DNA of 64,000 nucleotides from Anaerolineales bacterium (GTDB lineage Bacteria > Chloroflexota > Anaerolineae > Anaerolineales > UBA4823): the NCBI GenBank assembly GCA_025057645.1, contig JANXBJ010000003.1, positions 1-64,000 on the forward strand, read 5' to 3'. Shown here in pieces: positions 3,100 through 36,434 of the stretch; positions within the stretch are counted from its first letter, which is position 1, and the number at the start of each line of letters is the position of its first letter. The position numbers were made by a program, and so were the translations under genes. The notes beneath the pieces were generated by a model. It had not been told where the DNA came from. It did not search any database and worked only from the letters and a program-made list of their open reading frames with translations.

Positions 3100-4161
3100 A
3101 TGCCAGGAGGACACGCGCCCATACACTTTCATCCATGGGTATGGCTAACTTGGACAGGAAGCACTCTCCTGTGCGTCTCGCTGACGCGCAATCCTCTCTA
3201 TCTGGTGGTGGTGTGGTTGTGTGTGGCGATTGTGCATGCCGCAGGCGGCATGGGGGAGCTAGCTAGGGGGAGCGCTCCCTTTCCTCTCTGGCTTAGTCTC
3301 ACTGTTGTGCCGTTGGGAGCGCTGTTTAACGCTCTGACGGTGCACGTGGGCGAAAACATCCTCTTCGTCATCCCCGGAGCAATTCCCCTGCTAAGCGGAC
3401 GCGTTACTTGGGAAGCCGCCCTCTATGGGGCAACCAACGGATTGGCGTTGGGGGTTATCCTGCTCGTTTTTTGGGTTTTCAACCGCAATGTCTCAATTCC
3501 TTCATTTCTACGGCTATTGCCCCGTGCCTTTCATTCCCTGGCAGTTGTCGGGTCGATCGCTATGACGTTTGTTCCTTGCTTGCAACAGCAATATCAACAG
3601 ATTCAAGAAGCCCAGGCAATTCGCGGCAAGCAGCTCAGGGGCATTCGCGATCAGCTCGGATTGCTTTTGCCGCTTTTGGTCAGCTCGTTGGAGCATGCCT
3701 TTCAATTGGCGGAGGTGATGACGGCGCGCGGTTTTCTCGCTTCCCTATCCCCCCTGACTCGGAGCAACCTGCGGGCTGCCTTTTTAGGCGGCTTTGGTTT
3801 GGTTCTAGGAGGTTGGCTGTCTCGTTTTTGGGGCCTGCCGGGTTGGATTGCTAGTCTTCTGTTTTGGTGTGCCTTGGCGCTCTTTGGGGCTTTGTTCTTC
3901 TTGGCAATGCGTCAAGTGCGTTACACGATCTATCGCCCCCGGCGTTTTGGCGTGCGCGATGGGTTGGCAATCGGCGGGCCTTCTTTGCTTTCGCTGCTTC
4001 TGGTCTTGAATCACCTTTTCCCTGAGCGAGGCCTCCTCGCCTACACCCCCTATCCCGCCTTGACCCTGCCGCCCTTTGAGCCTTTGGTGGCCTTCCTCCT
4101 GTTAGGCATTCTCAGCCCATTCCTTGTTGCCGTTTTTGCTGGCCATGATTCGCTTTCGTAG
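3100..4161 (+). CDS. ECF transporter T component (EcfT-like)
   Basis: Multi-TM with coupling-helix-like segments (IQEAQAIRGKQL, AEVMTARGF) typical of CbiQ/EcfT. Confidence 0.88.
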   Translation: MPGGHAPIHFHPWVWLTWTGSTLLCVSLTRNPLYLVVVWLCVAIVHAAGGMGELARGSAPFPLWLSLTVVPLGALFNALTVHVGENILFVIPGAIPLLSGRVTWEAALYGATNGLALGVILLVFWVFNRNVSIPSFLRLLPRAFHSLAVVGSIAMTFVPCLQQQYQQIQEAQAIRGKQLRGIRDQLGLLLPLLVSSLEHAFQLAEVMTARGFLASLSPLTRSNLRAAFLGGFGLVLGGWLSRFWGLPGWIASLLFWCALALFGALFFLAMRQVRYTIYRPRRFGVRDGLAIGGPSLLSLLLVLNHLFPERGLLAYTPYPALTLPPFEPLVAFLLLGILSPFLVAVFAGHDSLS

Positions 4162-27062: not shown

Positions 27063-27686
27063 TCAGTCGAACACGGTCGGCGCAGAGGGGTCGGCGTGGG
27101 CGCGGAAGGCATCGGCGATGTGGCGGGGCAGGGTGCGCTCTCCTGAAAGCACAGCGGGAATCTCCTCTGCACGGAAAAAGGCCACTGCGCTGGTCTCATA
27201 ACCCGGGGTTGGCTCTCCTCCTATAATTTCGCAAAGAAAAACCAATTTGAAAGCGTGGAATAGCTCCAAATCGCCCATGCGGTTAGCATCGTAGATCCCC
27301 ACCACTTTGCGCGCTTTGACGCGCAACCCGGCTTCCTCAAAGACCTCCCGTTCGACGGCTTCCGAAGGAAGATCACCGACATCCGCCCAGCCACCCGGCA
27401 TGGTCCACCCTCCATCCGCCCGTTCGCGCACCAGTAATAGGCGATCGCCTTGGAACACCGCCGCCCGAACGTCGATGCGTGGCGTAGCATAGCCTTTGGG
27501 TTCGCGGAACAAACGATGAACTAGGGCGAAGTCCAAATTCCCCGCCTCGCTGGCAATTTCCGCCGCGATCTCTAGCAGTCGTTCGTAGCGTTGGCGGTCG
27601 TACTCGTTGGCCGAATAGTGAAGGCCTGTCTGGGCGATAGCTTGAATTTGGCGCGCCCACTCCAGCCAACGCAGCAAACTAGGCAC
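27063..27686 (-). CDS. NUDIX hydrolase
   Basis: Nudix box GGWADVGDLPSEAVEREVFEEAGL. Confidence 0.93.
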   Translation of the reverse strand: MPSLLRWLEWARQIQAIAQTGLHYSANEYDRQRYERLLEIAAEIASEAGNLDFALVHRLFREPKGYATPRIDVRAAVFQGDRLLLVRERADGGWTMPGGWADVGDLPSEAVEREVFEEAGLRVKARKVVGIYDANRMGDLELFHAFKLVFLCEIIGGEPTPGYETSAVAFFRAEEIPAVLSGERTLPRHIADAFRAHADPSAPTVFD

Positions 27687-30498
27687 GGCTCAACTCTCGC
27701 ACGATCACTTCTTGATCCACCGGAAGACGATCGATGCGCACCCCCACGGCGTTGTAAATGGCGTTGGTGATAGCGGGGGTGGTGGGAATGCTGACGATTT
27801 CTCCCACCCCTTTGGCACCGTATGGGCCGGCTTCGACCGGATGCTCTACTGCGTAAGCGGTGATCTTAGGCGTGTGCATAATAGAAGGCATGCGGTAACG
27901 CGCAAGGCGATCGGTAATGACAATCCCATTCTCCACAATGAAGTGCTCGGTTAGGGCGTTGCCGATACCCATCATGATTCCGCCTTCGAATTGCCCTTGC
28001 AACCCGAGAGGGTTAATTACCTTGCCGACATCGATGGCTGAGATTACCTCAAGCACCTTAACTTCGCCGGTGAGCGTGTTGACCTCGACCTCTGCCGCCT
28101 GAGCAGCAAATGAGAAAGCAAAGTGCATGTCCCCGCCTGTCCCAAGAGGCTGGGTTTTGGGTGCCCAGTATTCGTAGAAAGCTTTAGGAGTGCGCCCCTC
28201 TTGACGCACAATTCTCGCCACCTCTCCAAGCGTCAGGGTGTGCCCGTTGACTTGCGCCAGACCCTCGACAAAGCGAATACGTTCCGGCGATACGTCGAAC
28301 TTCTCTGCAAGAGAGGCAGCTAGAGCTTCTCGTAGCGACTGAGCGGCGTGGCGTGCAGCGTTGCCGGTGACGAAGGTTTGGCGCGAGGCAGTGGTTGGGC
28401 CACCGTCAGGGGTAAGGTCAGTATCCATAACCACGACACGCACCCGTTCGGGGGGCAGGGCGAATTCCTCGGCCACAATCATCCGCAAGACTGTTACCAA
28501 GCCCTGTCCTAACTCGGCAGAAGAGGTGCGAACTTCCAACGAGCCATCCTCGTAAAGTTCGACCTCAGCACCGGCTTTGTCCGGCGCTCCACCCCCAAGT
28601 CCGGTATTTTTATAGGCTACGGCAAAGCCCCAGGCGCGGCGCAAATGGGGCTGTCCCTCAACGATGCGAGAGGTGAAGGGGTTCTCCCCAGCTCGCTGCT
28701 TGAGCTCTCGGGCGACCGTTTCAATGCAATCCAGCAAGCCTACACTTTCCCTTAGCACCTGGCCTGTGTTAGTTACGCTCCCCACGCGCAGGGCGTTGAT
28801 CCGGCGCAGTTCGATCGGGTCGATGCGCAGGGCATGAGCGAGCATGTCCATTATGCTCTCGATAGCAAAAGCTGACTGGGTGACGCCAAAACCGCGAAAT
28901 GCCCCGGCCGGTGGGTTATTGGTATACATGGCATAACAATCGGCGCGTGCATGGGGCACCTCATATGGACCGGCCGAGTGGGTAGTGGCCCGAGTCATCA
29001 CTTTTTCGCCAAGCGAAGCGTAAGCACCTGTATCTCCGTAGAGCTCGGTTTCCACGGCGGTTAGACGCCCATCCCGTTTAGCCCCAATCTTGACCCGGAT
29101 TTGGGTGGCATGACGCTTCGGATGCACCAACAGACTCTCGTGACGGTCAAAGAGCAACTTGACCGGCCGACCAGTGGCGTGCGCTAGCAGAGCGGCGTGA
29201 ATCTGACCAGCGATGTCCTCTTTTCCGCCGAAGCCGCCACCCATGAGTTGACCGATGACATGCACTCGCTCATCGGGCCAACCCAAAGCCCGTGCTACCT
29301 GATGGCGGTCAGCATAGGGGATTTGTGAGCCAACGTAAATCTCCATCCGCCCATCAGGCGTGGGGCGAGCGATGCTGCACTCGGGCTCCATGAACGCATG
29401 CTCGGTGATGGCTGTGTGGAAAGTGTGTTCGAGGATCACATCCGCTTCGGCAAAACCCTGATTCACGTCCCCTTTGCGCACTTTGATGTGCTTGAGCAAG
29501 TTGCCTTTAGGGTGTAGCTGAGGTGCATCCGGTTGGCGAGCACGAACCGGGTCAGAAATCACCTCCTGCAGTTCGTACTCCGCCTTGATCAGCTCTAGGG
29601 CCTGGGTCGCGATTTCACGTGTTTCGGCGGCAACAATGGCGATTGCATCGCCGACATAGCGTACCCGCTCGCCGATCCCAACCAAGATTGGCCAGTCAAA
29701 GATGACTAAACCGTGGTTTCTTTCGCCGGGGATGTCTTCAGCGGTCAGCACTGCATGCACACCGGGTAAAGCGCGCGCTTTTTCTACATCTAAGCATTTG
29801 AGAATAGCATGGGGGACCATAGCTCGCTTCACTCGGGCATGCAACATGCCGGGGAACTTCAAATCGTCCGTAAACTTGGCGGTGCCGTTAACTTTTTCGA
29901 CCGCATCGGGGCGGGGTTGAAGGGTGCCGATTACATGTAGGGAGGGTTGGGATCTGCCCGATTCGGAAATCACGGGGGCCACCAACGGCGGTAATGGCTC
30001 TTCGCCGCGCAGCCGGCGCGCAGCCGACTGCACTGCACGGATAATCGAGGGATAGCCGGCGCAGCGACAGAGCGTATCCTTCAGAGCATGGCGGATCTCC
30101 TCTTCGCTGGGCTCGGGATTGTGCTGCAGAAGTGCATATGCGGTCATAATCTGACCGGGAATGCAAAAACCACACTGTACTGCTCCGTGGCGAATAAATT
30201 CTTCTTGTAGAGGGTGCAACATCGGCTGTTGTTCTGCCCCTTCTTGAGAGCGCCCAACAAAATAGGTGTCTGCTAGCCCTTCGATGGTCAAGACCGACTT
30301 CCCGGCGGCCCGAGCTGCCGGATAGGTGCAACTTAATATGGGTTCTCCGTCTACCAAGACGGTACAAGCGCCACACTCTGCTTCCTCGCAACCAATTTTG
30401 GTGCCGGTCAGACCGAGACGCTCCCGCAGTAGGTGGGCCAGCATTTCGCCGGGCTCGGGTTCAACCTCGACACGATTTCCGTTGACGATCAGTTCCAT
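27679..30498 (-). CDS. Xanthine-dehydrogenase-family Mo oxidoreductase: [2Fe-2S] small subunit fused to Mo-binding large subunit
   Basis: CEEAECGACTVLVDG, CGFCIPGQIMTAYALL, CRCAGYPSIIRAV; GQLMGGGFGGKED, NNPPAGAFRGFGVTQS, YGAKGVGEI. Confidence 0.95.
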   Translation of the reverse strand: MELIVNGNRVEVEPEPGEMLAHLLRERLGLTGTKIGCEEAECGACTVLVDGEPILSCTYPAARAAGKSVLTIEGLADTYFVGRSQEGAEQQPMLHPLQEEFIRHGAVQCGFCIPGQIMTAYALLQHNPEPSEEEIRHALKDTLCRCAGYPSIIRAVQSAARRLRGEEPLPPLVAPVISESGRSQPSLHVIGTLQPRPDAVEKVNGTAKFTDDLKFPGMLHARVKRAMVPHAILKCLDVEKARALPGVHAVLTAEDIPGERNHGLVIFDWPILVGIGERVRYVGDAIAIVAAETREIATQALELIKAEYELQEVISDPVRARQPDAPQLHPKGNLLKHIKVRKGDVNQGFAEADVILEHTFHTAITEHAFMEPECSIARPTPDGRMEIYVGSQIPYADRHQVARALGWPDERVHVIGQLMGGGFGGKEDIAGQIHAALLAHATGRPVKLLFDRHESLLVHPKRHATQIRVKIGAKRDGRLTAVETELYGDTGAYASLGEKVMTRATTHSAGPYEVPHARADCYAMYTNNPPAGAFRGFGVTQSAFAIESIMDMLAHALRIDPIELRRINALRVGSVTNTGQVLRESVGLLDCIETVARELKQRAGENPFTSRIVEGQPHLRRAWGFAVAYKNTGLGGGAPDKAGAEVELYEDGSLEVRTSSAELGQGLVTVLRMIVAEEFALPPERVRVVVMDTDLTPDGGPTTASRQTFVTGNAARHAAQSLREALAASLAEKFDVSPERIRFVEGLAQVNGHTLTLGEVARIVRQEGRTPKAFYEYWAPKTQPLGTGGDMHFAFSFAAQAAEVEVNTLTGEVKVLEVISAIDVGKVINPLGLQGQFEGGIMMGIGNALTEHFIVENGIVITDRLARYRMPSIMHTPKITAYAVEHPVEAGPYGAKGVGEIVSIPTTPAITNAIYNAVGVRIDRLPVDQEVIVRELSRA

Positions 30499-30505
30499 AG
30501 CTCTC

Positions 30506-31414
30506 TCATCCTTTCACCGATAAAGGACCTAACTCTTCTGCAAAATTCAATTGGGTTCGTTCCCAAGCTGTTTGGAGAGTTTGGCGCAATAGGACTCCCG
30601 CTAAGTGGTAGCGATATTCTGCTGTGGCCCGATGTGGACTGGTGCGGAAGCGCGCCTCTGACTTCAAAACCTTCTCCGCTTCGGCAAGGGTTTCTTCGTC
30701 CAACGGCTTGCCTCGCAAAACCTGTTCGGTTTGCCGAGCGCGGAAAGGCATTGGTCCAGAGGGGCCAACAGCAATGCGGATGTCCTCAATACGCTCGTCT
30801 TTGCGTCTCAACCAGATGCCCATATTCTCGATGGCGATAGCCACGCCTTGCGGACGCATCACGCGCCGGAAAGCGGAAGCCTCCTCTTTTTCACAAGCCG
30901 GGACTTGAAAAGCGACAATAATCTCAGCCCTCTGCAGCGCAGTTTTACCCGGGCCGGCGTAGCACGCCAGCAAAGGTTGGAGGCGCTGACCTTCTGGCGA
31001 AGCAACGAGTACCTGAGCGTCCAGAGCGAGCAGGGCAATCGCCCCATCGGCGGCAGGCAAGGCGTGAGCGACATTGCCGCCCAGGGTTGCAACATTGCGC
31101 ACCTGTGGGCCACCGATCAGCGAAATCGCCTCGCAAAGCGCAGTGGCGAAGTGGCGAACTGGGGGCCAAGCGATCACCCGGTTCAGAGGTACGCTGGCTC
31201 CGATCCACAATGCCCCTTGGCTCATTTCAAGCCGTTGTAGTGCAGCAATTTGCGAAAGGTCCACCAGAGTGCGGACCGGGGGATGTCGACCTTGTTGTAA
31301 CTCGAGAAGCAAGTCGGTTCCCCCCGCTATCGCTTTGCTCTGCGGCTCTCGGCATAGGAGCGAAAGTGCTTCGTCCAGCGTTTGAGGAATGTAATAATGG
31401 GTCCAAATAGCCAT
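30506..31414 (-). CDS. FAD-binding subunit of xanthine dehydrogenase/CoxM-type oxidoreductase
   Basis: YYIPQTLDEALSLL, AIAGGTDLLLELQQG, RNVATLGGNVAHALPAADGAIALLALDA. Confidence 0.95.
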   Translation of the reverse strand: MAIWTHYYIPQTLDEALSLLCREPQSKAIAGGTDLLLELQQGRHPPVRTLVDLSQIAALQRLEMSQGALWIGASVPLNRVIAWPPVRHFATALCEAISLIGGPQVRNVATLGGNVAHALPAADGAIALLALDAQVLVASPEGQRLQPLLACYAGPGKTALQRAEIIVAFQVPACEKEEASAFRRVMRPQGVAIAIENMGIWLRRKDERIEDIRIAVGPSGPMPFRARQTEQVLRGKPLDEETLAEAEKVLKSEARFRTSPHRATAEYRYHLAGVLLRQTLQTAWERTQLNFAEELGPLSVKG

Positions 31415-31701: not shown

Positions 31702-31730
31702 TTGTCAGTGGTGGACGGATAGAGTATGCT
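31702..31730 (+). promoter_or_regulatory. Sigma70-type promoter of selC
   Basis: TTGTCA (31702-31707), 17-bp spacer, TATGCT (31725-31730), 7 bp before the tRNA-Sec 5' end. Confidence 0.7.
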
Positions 31731-31737
31731 TAACGGT

Positions 31738-31831
31738 GGGAGTGGTTGAGCCCCGGTGGGTTCCTCGGTCTTCAAAACCGGTGGCGGGTCGCGTTGCGAG
31801 CCGCGGTGGGTTCGACTCCCATCCACTCCCG
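31738..31831 (+). tRNA. selC: tRNA-Sec (anticodon UCA)
   Basis: 8-bp acceptor GGGAGTGG/CCACTCCC, anticodon loop CTTCAAA, long variable arm GCGGGTCGC-GTT-GCGAGCCGC, T-arm GGTTCGACTCCC, discriminator G; CCA not encoded. Confidence 0.96.
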
Positions 31832-31842
31832 TTGGAGGTCTC

Positions 31843-33057
31843 ATGATGTTCTCGACGGAATACGACCCACTTACTTCAATTATAGCCCGCCATTTGCGTA
31901 TCAGCGATGTCACTCAAGGCGATGGCAAACAGCCCTACGCAGTGCGCTATCGCGGGCAGTTGTACGGTGACTCCGAACAAGCCTACGAACAGCTCTCTGC
32001 TGCGCTCAAACCCTTGGGCTATACTCCCCTCTTTCGTATGGAGAAGGGTCAGCATGTGATCTATCTGGTGGCGGCTCTTCCGGATGCCAAACCCGGAAAA
32101 ATGGCCTTGAACGTAATTCTGTTTGTGCTTACTGTGATCAGTGTAATCATCGCCGGAATACTTTATTCCTTGGGTGGCCAAGAACTACCTCTCACTTCGC
32201 GCAACTTAGAAGATTGGCTTCCCGCTCTCCGCGCCAGCTTAAGCAATGGAGTTGCCTTTGCTATCAGCTTGTTAGCGATCCTCCTCGCTCATGAATTTGG
32301 TCACTACCTTGTTGGACGAGCGCATGGTGAACAGGTCACTTTGCCCTATTTCCTGCCCTTTCCGTTCAGCGCTTTCGGCACCCTAGGGGCGTTTATCAAT
32401 ATGAAGGCACCCCCGAAGAATAAGCGTGCTCTGCTAGATATTAGCTTAGCTGGCCCTCTGGCCGGTTTGGCGGTTGCCTTCCCGATCTTGATCCTCGGAC
32501 TGGCCCTATCGGAAGTCACTCCCTTGCCTAGTAGTCCGCACAGCGGGGTGGGCATTCAGATTGAGGGGAATTCGCTTCTTTACTTGTTTGCAAAGTGGAT
32601 CGTGCACGGCAAGTTGTTACCTCAACCGCCCACTTATGGGGATTTACCCCCTTGGTTGTATTGGTTACGATATATTTTCACCGGCCGCCCGTTCCCTTAC
32701 GGAGGCGTTGATGTGTTGCTCCATCCCGTGGCATGGGCAGGTTGGGCGGGTCTTTTAGTCACTTCGCTCAACTTGATCCCCGCCGGACAGTTAGACGGGG
32801 GGCATGTGGCCTATGTCCTCCTGGGCAAGAAGGCGCATCGCATCCTGCCTCTAGTCTTGGGAGCCCTAGTATTGTTGGGGTTTGTTTGGAACGGCTGGTG
32901 GATTTGGGCCTTGCTGGTCTTTGCCTTTGGCCGCCAATACGCCGAGCCTCTAGATCAAATTACCGAGTTGGACTCCGCTCGGCGTCTTGTGGCGTGGTTT
33001 GCGGTCCTTCTATTCGTGCTGGTCTTTATTCCGGTTCCCCTTTTGACCATTAGTTGA
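31843..33057 (+). CDS. Site-2-protease-like M50 family metallopeptidase
   Basis: LLAHEFGHYLVGRAHG (HExxH), NLIPAGQLDGGHVAY; start reset to ATG 31843 with GGAGG at 31834-31838. The track ORF start (31756) lies inside the tRNA. Confidence 0.93.
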   Translation: MMFSTEYDPLTSIIARHLRISDVTQGDGKQPYAVRYRGQLYGDSEQAYEQLSAALKPLGYTPLFRMEKGQHVIYLVAALPDAKPGKMALNVILFVLTVISVIIAGILYSLGGQELPLTSRNLEDWLPALRASLSNGVAFAISLLAILLAHEFGHYLVGRAHGEQVTLPYFLPFPFSAFGTLGAFINMKAPPKNKRALLDISLAGPLAGLAVAFPILILGLALSEVTPLPSSPHSGVGIQIEGNSLLYLFAKWIVHGKLLPQPPTYGDLPPWLYWLRYIFTGRPFPYGGVDVLLHPVAWAGWAGLLVTSLNLIPAGQLDGGHVAYVLLGKKAHRILPLVLGALVLLGFVWNGWWIWALLVFAFGRQYAEPLDQITELDSARRLVAWFAVLLFVLVFIPVPLLTIS

Positions 33058-33065
33058 GGGGTGAA

Positions 33066-34925
33066 GTGACGGACGAAGTCTTGCTGCGGGAGGCCATTGA
33101 GGCTGTTCGCGAGCAGAAATTCGACCGCGCCCGCGATCTCCTGACTCGTCTGTTGCGTAACGATCAGAACAATCCGACTTATTGGCTGTGGATGAGCGCA
33201 GCCGTCCAAACCCCAAAAGAAAGACGCTATTGCCTTGAAACGGTTTTGCGCCTTGACCCTACTCATGAGCAGGCCAAGCAAGGCTTGGCTCTACTAGGCA
33301 TCTCTGAAGCGGAGATCGGCACTCGCCCTCTTTCCTTGCCACGTCGCAAATGGGACGTGGAAGAGCGCATCGCTCTCTCCCCGCAAGAGGAGAAGGACGG
33401 ACGGAAGACGTTTCGGCGAGGCAGAGTAGGGTTCGGCGCGATCCTACTGACCTTGTTGATCTTCGTAGGATGGGGACTTGCGCTGATGATCCCTCGAAGA
33501 GCTGTCCCAACGGTGGTCTTTCCCACGCGCACCCCCGGCCCGCCGCCGACGTTTACGCCCACACCGACCTACATTGGCTTCGTGGCCCCTCTTTCCTCTG
33601 AAAGTCTAGCGCAACCTACACCGTTATGGATGCTTCTGGAGGCAACCTACACCCCTACGCCCCTATACGTCAATACCCCTCATCCTGTGTCTGAAGCGTT
33701 TCGTGCTGGATTAGTGGCTTATCACCAAGGCGCATGGGACAGGGCGATTGCTTTCTTTGAACAGGCCCAAGAAATCGAGCCTCAAGCTGCGGATATCGCC
33801 TATTACCTGGGAGAGACCTTTCGCCTGATGGGAGAACCGCACCGGGCTTTGGAGGCATATGCCCAAGCTCTGCGACTGAATCCGAGCTTTGCACCTGCTC
33901 TGTTGGGGCGCGCTCGGGCAAACCTCTCTCTCAACCCCGGAAGTGACGTCCTGCCGGATTTGAACCAAGCCTTGCAAATCGACCCCAATCTGGCCGAGGC
34001 CTACCTGGAGAGGGCGAAGGTTTACCTGAAGTTGGAAGAAGTGGAAAAGGCCCTGCAAGATGCGGACAAGGCGGAGGAACTATTGCCCTCTTCGCCGTTG
34101 CCGCCCCTGATGCGGGCGCAGATTTTGCTCCAACAGGGAAACGTCCAACAAGCTTATCAGGAGGCGCAAAAGGCCTATGCGCGCGACCGCACGCTTCTGG
34201 AAGCTTACCGCCTGTTGGGCGAAACGGCCCTGCTGAATGGTGAGCTCGAGCAAGCTCGGGAGGTGCTGCAAATCTATCTTGAGCACGAAAGAGAGGATAG
34301 CGCTGCATATACCTTATATGCCAGAGCGCTGATCGACCTGGGTGAAGAGAAGGACCTGATTGACGCCATGATGGTCGGGCTGCCCTCGTCTGAGGGGAGA
34401 AAAGAAGCTTTGCAAGCGCTGGACCGTGCCCTTGCGCTGGAACCGGATAATGCTTGGGCGCGCATAGCGCGCAGTTGTCTCTTTCTCGAACTCGATGAGG
34501 GACAAAAAGCTGTGAACGATCTTACCGAGGCACGCCCTCTTCTGTTCCAGAGAGCAAATGCCCAAAAGGACCCGCTTTGGTTTGCTTACCACCTTGCTCT
34601 AAGCCGCGCCCTTTTGGAAGCTGGTCGATTGGAAGCGGCGGAAAAGCAGTTTAACTATGCGGCAGAATTTGCAAAGAGTAACCGCGAAAAGGCTGCTCTA
34701 TACTATTGGCGCGGACGAGTTTATCTTGCTCTTGAGCAGAAAAGTTTGGCTCAGCGCGATTGGGCAGCTTTGCTTAAGCTGCCTCCCCAGGAAGTGCCGC
34801 TTGAGTGGCGACGCGCAGCGCAGAGCTTTCTGGTGACACCAACCCATACCTCCTTGCCATGGCGTGCTTCCCCCACCCCACAACGCACTCCTTCGCCGAC
34901 TCTTGCAAGGACTGCTACTCCCTAA
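33066..34925 (+). CDS. TPR-repeat protein with single TM and Pro/Thr linker
   Basis: Repeated TPR-like segments (AFRAGLVAYHQGAWDRAIAFFEQAQEIEPQ; LGETFRLMGEPHRALEAYAQALRLNPS); TM GFGAILLTLLIFVGWGLAL; possible GTG start at 33066. Confidence 0.88.
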   Translation: MTDEVLLREAIEAVREQKFDRARDLLTRLLRNDQNNPTYWLWMSAAVQTPKERRYCLETVLRLDPTHEQAKQGLALLGISEAEIGTRPLSLPRRKWDVEERIALSPQEEKDGRKTFRRGRVGFGAILLTLLIFVGWGLALMIPRRAVPTVVFPTRTPGPPPTFTPTPTYIGFVAPLSSESLAQPTPLWMLLEATYTPTPLYVNTPHPVSEAFRAGLVAYHQGAWDRAIAFFEQAQEIEPQAADIAYYLGETFRLMGEPHRALEAYAQALRLNPSFAPALLGRARANLSLNPGSDVLPDLNQALQIDPNLAEAYLERAKVYLKLEEVEKALQDADKAEELLPSSPLPPLMRAQILLQQGNVQQAYQEAQKAYARDRTLLEAYRLLGETALLNGELEQAREVLQIYLEHEREDSAAYTLYARALIDLGEEKDLIDAMMVGLPSSEGRKEALQALDRALALEPDNAWARIARSCLFLELDEGQKAVNDLTEARPLLFQRANAQKDPLWFAYHLALSRALLEAGRLEAAEKQFNYAAEFAKSNREKAALYYWRGRVYLALEQKSLAQRDWAALLKLPPQEVPLEWRRAAQSFLVTPTHTSLPWRASPTPQRTPSPTLARTATP

Positions 34926-34934
34926 ACGACCCTG

Positions 34935-36434
34935 ATGGAAAACCCATTCTCCTCTGAGGACCCCGCTCTCGCAGCTCCTAAGGTCGCCCACCCGAGGCAA
35001 AACGTTTTGCGGGGAGGTCCTGCTTTACGGCGCACTCTTTTTGTAGGATTTTTGATTCTAGCGCTCCTAGTTCTCTTGCCCTCCCAGCGCCCAGATCGCT
35101 ATTGGCTCAGTGCCATGGCGTTGCTCTCCATCCTCTTAGCGGAGACGGCCCTCAGCTTGCGTGAGTTGCGACAAAGGGCCCGGGAGCGGGACCAACAGCT
35201 CTCCACCCTAAGTGCCATCAGCCAGGCGATGCAAAATGCTACCCAACTTGATGAGATTCTGGTGATGATTCAACAACGCGTGCGTCAACATCTTGGGGTG
35301 GATAACTTCTACGTTGCCCTATACGACGAGCCGAACAATCGAATCTGGTATCCTATGGCGGTCAAGGGCGGACAGATTGTCTACTGGGCCGTGCGCCCTC
35401 TGACAAACCGGCTGACCGACAGGGTTATCCTAGAACGGCGCCCCCTCCTTTTGTCTGGACAAGCTCATCGGGAGCTGGAGCGGATTGGATTGCCTCTGGG
35501 AGAAGAGCCGCTTTCGGCTTGGATGGGTGTGCCCTTACTGATGAATGACCGTGCTATAGGTTGCCTAGCCGTTTTTTCCTATTCTCCTCTGACCTCTTTT
35601 TCTTATGAGGATCTTGGGTTTCTCCAGACCCTCGCCGGACAGGTGGCAGTTGTAGCGCAGAACCGCTTGCTCAGTGAACAAATCCAGCAGAGTGAACAGC
35701 GCCTTCAAAAAATGAGCCTTCAGAGCCGCCAGCGCGAATTGCTCACCGAAACCCTGGTGCATGATTTGCGTTCCCCGATCGGAACTGTCCTTAATGCTTT
35801 GGAAGTGATTGCCACAACAGTTGAGGATGAGGAAGTTCCTCCTAAGGAGACCTTGCTCCGTGCAGTAGAGATTGCTCGGCAAGGCGCAACCCGTTTGCTC
35901 AAACTGACGGATCGCGTTCTTGAGATTGCTCGCATGGAAGAGGGGGATGTTGAGCTGCATAGACAACCTATCTCTGTTTCAGAATGGCTCTTTGCAATTT
36001 ATCAAGAGTATCAACCGCGTTGTGCCAAGGAACGGTTGGCTTTTCGCCTTCACCTTGGTGCAGATTTGCCGGTGTTGGATGGGGATGAGGAAAAGCTGAG
36101 CCGCGTACTGCGCAACCTTCTGGATAATGCAATAAACTTCACCCCGCACGGCGGCGAGATCCGCTTGTCTGCTTTCGTGCCGCAGAGAGGCCAGTTGAGG
36201 CTCCAAGTAGAAGATACAGGTCCGGGCATTCCTCCCGCCGATCGTGAAAAAGTATTCGAACGGTTTTATCAGGTTTCTGGACAGCCGGCAAAGCAACGTG
36301 GCACGGGTTTAGGATTGACCTTTTGTAAGCTAGTGGTTGAAGCGCATGGGGGAGAGATTTGGGTCGAGAGCTCGCCTGAGGGCGGTTGCCGCATGGTCAT
36401 TCAGTTTCCGACTCAGCCTTTAGAGGCTGCCTGA
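34935..36434 (+). CDS. GAF-domain sensor histidine kinase
   Basis: TM N-terminus, GAF-like region, HisKA LVHDLRSPIGTVLNALE, HATPase VLRNLLDNAINFTPHGG, DTGPGIPP, GTGLGLTFCK. Confidence 0.93.
   Translation: MENPFSSEDPALAAPKVAHPRQNVLRGGPALRRTLFVGFLILALLVLLPSQRPDRYWLSAMALLSILLAETALSLRELRQRARERDQQLSTLSAISQAMQNATQLDEILVMIQQRVRQHLGVDNFYVALYDEPNNRIWYPMAVKGGQIVYWAVRPLTNRLTDRVILERRPLLLSGQAHRELERIGLPLGEEPLSAWMGVPLLMNDRAIGCLAVFSYSPLTSFSYEDLGFLQTLAGQVAVVAQNRLLSEQIQQSEQRLQKMSLQSRQRELLTETLVHDLRSPIGTVLNALEVIATTVEDEEVPPKETLLRAVEIARQGATRLLKLTDRVLEIARMEEGDVELHRQPISVSEWLFAIYQEYQPRCAKERLAFRLHLGADLPVLDGDEEKLSRVLRNLLDNAINFTPHGGEIRLSAFVPQRGQLRLQVEDTGPGIPPADREKVFERFYQVSGQPAKQRGTGLGLTFCKLVVEAHGGEIWVESSPEGGCRMVIQFPTQPLEAA

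Follow-up and report, generated by a model that had tools for sequence, protein, structure and literature searches.

What transcribes a protease gene that begins a few bases behind a tRNA gene? The question is raised by a locus in an Anaerolineales genome, within a window of 64,000 nt (the whole stretch of DNA that was analysed), where selC, the gene of tRNA-Sec, is followed by a gene for an M50 intramembrane metalloprotease. The first-pass annotation of this DNA had proposed that the protease is probably transcribed from the selC promoter. Promoter statistics and conserved synteny now support this proposal, and we consider it highly probable that the M50 gene is co-transcribed from that promoter, with selC leading a tRNA-mRNA operon. 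The locus contains the following features, all on the plus strand.

31702 to 31707, plus strand: predicted -35 element TTGTCA of the selC promoter (9/12 match, spacer 17)
31725 to 31730, plus strand: predicted -10 element TATGCT of the selC promoter, its end 7 nt upstream of the start of tRNA-Sec
31738 to 31831, plus strand: selC, tRNA-Sec with UCA anticodon and no encoded CCA (ARAGORN, Rfam RF01852, RNA fold)
31834 to 31838, plus strand: Shine-Dalgarno sequence GGAGG of the M50 gene, read from the sequence
31846 to 33057, plus strand: M50 (site-2 protease family) intramembrane metalloprotease (PF02163, invariant HExxH and LDGGH, AlphaFold fold; alternative ATG at 31843)
33066 to 34925, plus strand: TPR-repeat protein (Pfam TPR), in this genus probably the unit's third gene (order the same in L056, L057 and L058)
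34935 to 36434, plus strand: GAF-domain sensor histidine kinase (Pfam), probable fourth gene in this genus (order the same in L056 to L058)

The claim of a full bacterial-type tRNA-Sec is borne out. ARAGORN calls tRNA-SeC(TCA) at 31738-31831, the Rfam covariance model RF01852 matches at 75.5 bits (gathering score 47), and the RNA fold pairs 8 bp in the acceptor stem and 5 bp in the T-stem and shows structure in the variable arm. The last base, 31831, is the discriminator G (G73). Of the bacterial tRNA-Sec genes in one survey, 93% encode CCA (PMC5330540), and the selC described here is of the minority form; CCA is mostly missing from the other tRNAs of its genome too. The annotation was also right that selA, selB and selD are absent from the 64,000-nt window. 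A profile search of the genome finds all three elsewhere and over cut-off, selB on contig C61, selA on C11 and selD on the window's own contig (C33:128059-128991). The selD gene has a TGA in frame near its N-terminus, and the formate dehydrogenase alpha subunit FdhA on C11 has a TGA inside the motif DHCARLUHSSTVAGL. Judged by gene content, the genome uses Sec and selC is part of a working system. The idea of selC as a relic, which a genome-wide search for the machinery and for Sec-TGA genes had been suggested to settle, is ruled out by selA, selB, the Sec-containing selD and the Sec formate dehydrogenase. On its other side selC adjoins divergent minus-strand molybdenum hydroxylase genes (27679-31414), the large subunit of which scores 814.2 bits to TIGR03311, a selenium-dependent xanthine dehydrogenase (cut-off 830.45). 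No match to it lies beside selC in the loci of other relatives, and we take this selenium link to be a coincidence.

The junction of selC and the protease gene is tight. The GGAGG that had been placed 3 nt past the tRNA begins on the third base after it, and a GGAGGT adjoining the tRNA is preserved in four same-genus loci. An 11-bp gap to the M50 start had been claimed. The ATG at 31843 that would give 11 nt exists, but the adjacent ATG at 31846, 14 nt from selC, aligns with the start of the M50 gene in the nearest relatives and is therefore the likelier one. The earlier view that no separate promoter fits in between holds for a gap of just 11-14 nt; neither promoter nor terminator is predicted there, and both genes lie on the same strand, as in a tRNA-mRNA operon. 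Among the 33 tRNAs examined in this genome, selC alone is followed within 20 nt by a clear Shine-Dalgarno sequence and a long ORF that starts with ATG, and in its own genus the unit reaches from selC over M50 and the TPR gene to the histidine kinase gene. A fusion or ORF running through selC, as in selB-selC, was considered and rejected: of 38 loci, only 8 keep the M50 frame open across selC, and the window's locus is not among them.

The predicted -10 box ends 7 nt before tRNA-Sec, and therefore the predicted start lies at or next to G1. Upstream of selC in relatives, either CTTGNCA-N17-GGTATNCTTA or a TATAAT box recurs, and TATGCT, TATCCT or TATTCT forms the -10 box in 24 of 44 loci of the order, across families. 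Unlike selC with its non-consensus -10 box, most other tRNA genes of this genome whose promoters were scored have TATAAT or TAAAAT. We scored 100 nt upstream of selC in 55 loci against shuffles, using a simple sigma-70 matrix with hand-set, rough E. coli-type weights that is unproven in Chloroflexota. The best score has a median of 10.37, compared to 6.05 for shuffled sequences (p about 2e-25; this and the following promoter p-values overstate the differences, related sequences not being independent samples). Within selC-M50 gaps of at least 40 nt no promoter signal stands above shuffles (5.64 versus 5.82, p 0.54), and 27 of 56 pairs have a gap of 36 nt or less, which is too short for a whole promoter. 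Upstream of M50 genes without adjacent selC the score is 8.08 versus 6.06 (p 2e-4). Some longer gaps (e.g. L124, L133, L143, L154) score like promoters, and in some species with such gaps M50 may have a start of its own. Terminators occur in the first 100 nt of 2/39 selC-adjacent and 6/32 non-adjacent loci, a difference that is suggestive only (p 0.13). The -10 box ends at most 8 nt before tRNA-Sec in 26/55 loci, versus 2/21 when the scored promoters belong to other tRNA genes of this genome (p 0.003, with related loci not independent). This spacing suggests that tRNA-Sec may be transcribed with almost no 5' leader.

Conservation of the selC-M50 order, proposed earlier as a check, is found from both sides. 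Of the 42 selC loci of same-order relatives that extend far enough downstream to be judged, 39 are followed by an M50 gene on the same strand; the distance is no more than about 190 nt in 38 of these and 982 nt in the remaining one. The exceptions are L029, L047 and L053, the last with a strong terminator hairpin behind selC. A second view starts from M50, taking the best 80 loci in GTDB genomes, which partly overlap the genomes of the selC-based set and include Leptolinea, Anaerolinea and Ornatilinea isolates as cultured members. Here selC adjoins M50 upstream in 59 loci, 56 called by ARAGORN and three missed by it yet evident (L113, L149, L155; a contig start or N gap explains two of the three). 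In the remainder, selC lies 1.8-3.1 kb upstream in two, is decayed in one (L130) and is not adjacent in 18. Eleven of these 18 belong to a Brevefilum-like clade, in which selA is present and selC, where found, is elsewhere in the genome; six are from genomes without selA; and in the genome of L142 selC is on another contig, with selA not found. Several seemingly selC-less relatives (L090, L091, L094, L102, L155) are artefacts of assembly, where a contig end or an N gap cuts through selC. In L102 and L155 short N runs interrupt selC upstream of M50, and automatic searches call these genomes selC-less. One assembly, G055 (L029, L044), has two tRNA-Sec genes; the one with acceptor GGGAGTGA lacks M50 and may be contamination.

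In these comparisons protein identity goes down to about 50%. On a quick M50 tree about 12 changes are required to account for the adjacent state, which is present in all major clades; this fits an ancestral selC-M50 pair with repeated loss, although change counts alone cannot separate gain from loss. Other neighbours are poorly kept: the commonest other family within three genes upstream of the pair occurs in 13/47 adjacent loci, and a TPR-family homologue downstream in 12/52 wider loci. Therefore the pair is conserved beyond general gene-order conservation, and by these comparisons the order selC to M50 is conserved across many families of Anaerolineales-type Chloroflexota despite changed surroundings. 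Outside the order, among the matches listed, selC and M50 are mostly on different contigs, with one adjacent case, G329 (compared by eye).

The protein encoded behind selC is a Peptidase_M50 (Pfam PF02163, 67.5 bits, cut-off 27.2). HExxH and the downstream Asp motif LDGGH are invariant across 38 aligned homologues, and the active-site residues of the window's protein are intact, which marks it as a putative intramembrane protease. Its AlphaFold model (pLDDT 84) shows a helical membrane core preceded by a beta-alpha domain at the N-terminus, and the top PDB fold matches are SpoIVFB and RseP (8vjm, 8vjl, then 7w6y); a profile search among solved chains gave no significant sequence match. With these site-2 proteases it shares the HExxH and LDG active-site motifs and a multi-pass membrane fold, while the N-terminal beta-alpha domain of about 80 residues is its own. 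By analogy with the family, it would act in regulated intramembrane proteolysis. In one relative, L038 (G021), HVFGH replaces HEFGH in the zinc motif, so that the catalytic Glu would go; this gene is still next to selC.

Does the protease play a part in selenium biology, perhaps as the enzyme that processes a membrane regulator of selenite or Sec metabolism? The conserved adjacency to selC across many families would suit such a role. However, M50 is kept in at least 10 genomes without selA over cut-off, spread over several clades of the tree, and outside the order, among the matches listed, it is usually far from selC. Since species without Sec keep it, M50 is not a dedicated selenium gene, and of the readings weighed here we give a selenium role the smallest chance. 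The Sec-less genomes L093, L125 and L173 keep M50 with a promoter-like box upstream. In L130, whose genome has neither selA nor an intact selC, a degenerate selC (3855-3960) still separates a TATAAT box from M50; the local alignment score of this remnant is 38, compared to 27 for the best of 200 shuffles. This tRNA-Sec pseudogene has TTA at the anticodon-loop position, and the stem no longer pairs. M50 outlives Sec, and a shared promoter rather than a shared pathway is therefore the simplest reason for the pairing. It is also conceivable that selC and M50 came to lie side by side at some point and merely stayed so, transcribed separately or with a trivial read-through of no consequence. That Sec-less genomes keep M50 without selC, that the two genes are apart in the Brevefilum-like clade and that some gaps measure 100-190 nt would all agree with this. 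Yet the pair outlasts all other neighbours, a promoter signal is missing in the gaps, half of which are too short for a promoter, and the own-genus gap is 11-14 nt. Inertia of this kind thus appears unlikely to us, although it is the strongest of the alternatives.

Co-transcription from the selC promoter would proceed as follows. From the sigma-70-type promoter TTGTCA-17-TATGCT, RNA polymerase would begin on the first nucleotide of the tRNA or no more than one or two bases away from it and, without a terminator after selC, read through into M50; in this genus the transcript would probably continue into the TPR and histidine kinase genes. Because no CCA is encoded, an RNase Z-type endonuclease would probably cut tRNA-Sec at the discriminator base, and the genome has an RNase Z-like gene (290.6 bits, just under the cut-off of 292.95). 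After this cut the M50 mRNA would begin with a leader of about 11-14 nt bearing GGAGG. Transcription of M50 would then depend on the selC promoter, and the 5' end of its mRNA would be set by tRNA maturation. Read-through, cleavage site and any regulatory consequence are what we infer; the genes, synteny, promoter statistics, Sec machinery and RNase Z-like gene are observed. A physical coupling of tRNA-Sec 3' processing and protease mRNA would follow from the geometry, and a regulatory coupling via this processing is put forward as a hypothesis.

Such regulation could mean that folding, charging or 3' cleavage of tRNA-Sec controls whether the M50 Shine-Dalgarno sequence is accessible, with the protease level reporting selenium status or tRNA maturation. 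A comparable idea has been put forward for selC nested in selB (PMC8124441), and in the own genus, where GGAGG begins on the third base past the tRNA, the 30S subunit and the tRNA 3' end would compete for space. Against this, most relatives have gaps of 20-190 nt and so have not conserved the close spacing, M50 is retained where Sec is absent, and the structural support is one fold only; we regard this reading as improbable. The same low expectation applies to a nearly leaderless tRNA-Sec that serves as processed 5' leader of the protease mRNA and whose 3' cleavage or charging tunes protease output. If true, that tuning would amount to a switch that responds to selenium or tRNA maturation and has been retained throughout a bacterial order.

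It is unusual for one special tRNA and one protein gene to stay paired throughout an order, and no report of a selC-M50 pair or order-wide operon was found in the open-licence literature searched. Co-transcription makes a testable prediction, namely that tRNA-Sec and the intramembrane protease are co-expressed in Anaerolineales. The natural series in which selC is adjacent, has moved away or is decayed, or in which Sec is lost, offers a clean system for studying a tRNA gene as mRNA promoter and leader, and lets one ask how it becomes, and then stops being, both.

Bacterial tRNA-mRNA operons have been described before, such as thrU-tyrU-glyT-thrT-tufB of E. coli. There, as proposed here, tRNA genes lie upstream of a protein gene in one transcript that is split by tRNA processing; the locus described here differs in having a single special tRNA and an intramembrane protease. 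The closest parallel for selC comes from Alphaproteobacteria, where selC is nested in or overlaps selB and remnant tRNA-Sec sequences occur (Mukai 2021, PMC8124441). In both cases tRNA-Sec is physically joined to a protein-coding transcript, the arrangement is conserved across genera without being essential, and decayed remnants are found where the genes are separated; a coupling of processing and expression was proposed there too. However, in selB-selC the tRNA gene lies inside the selB frame, and the selB stop overlaps the start of the next ORF (PMC8124441). In the genome studied here selB is on C61 and the M50 frame is closed through selC. Here the phylum is a different one, the putative 5' leader selC precedes the gene of an unrelated M50 protease, and no ORF through selC is conserved. 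Thus, tRNA-mRNA operons and the overlap of selC with an mRNA (selB-selC, PMC8124441) were already known, and what is added here is the order-wide pairing of selC with M50.
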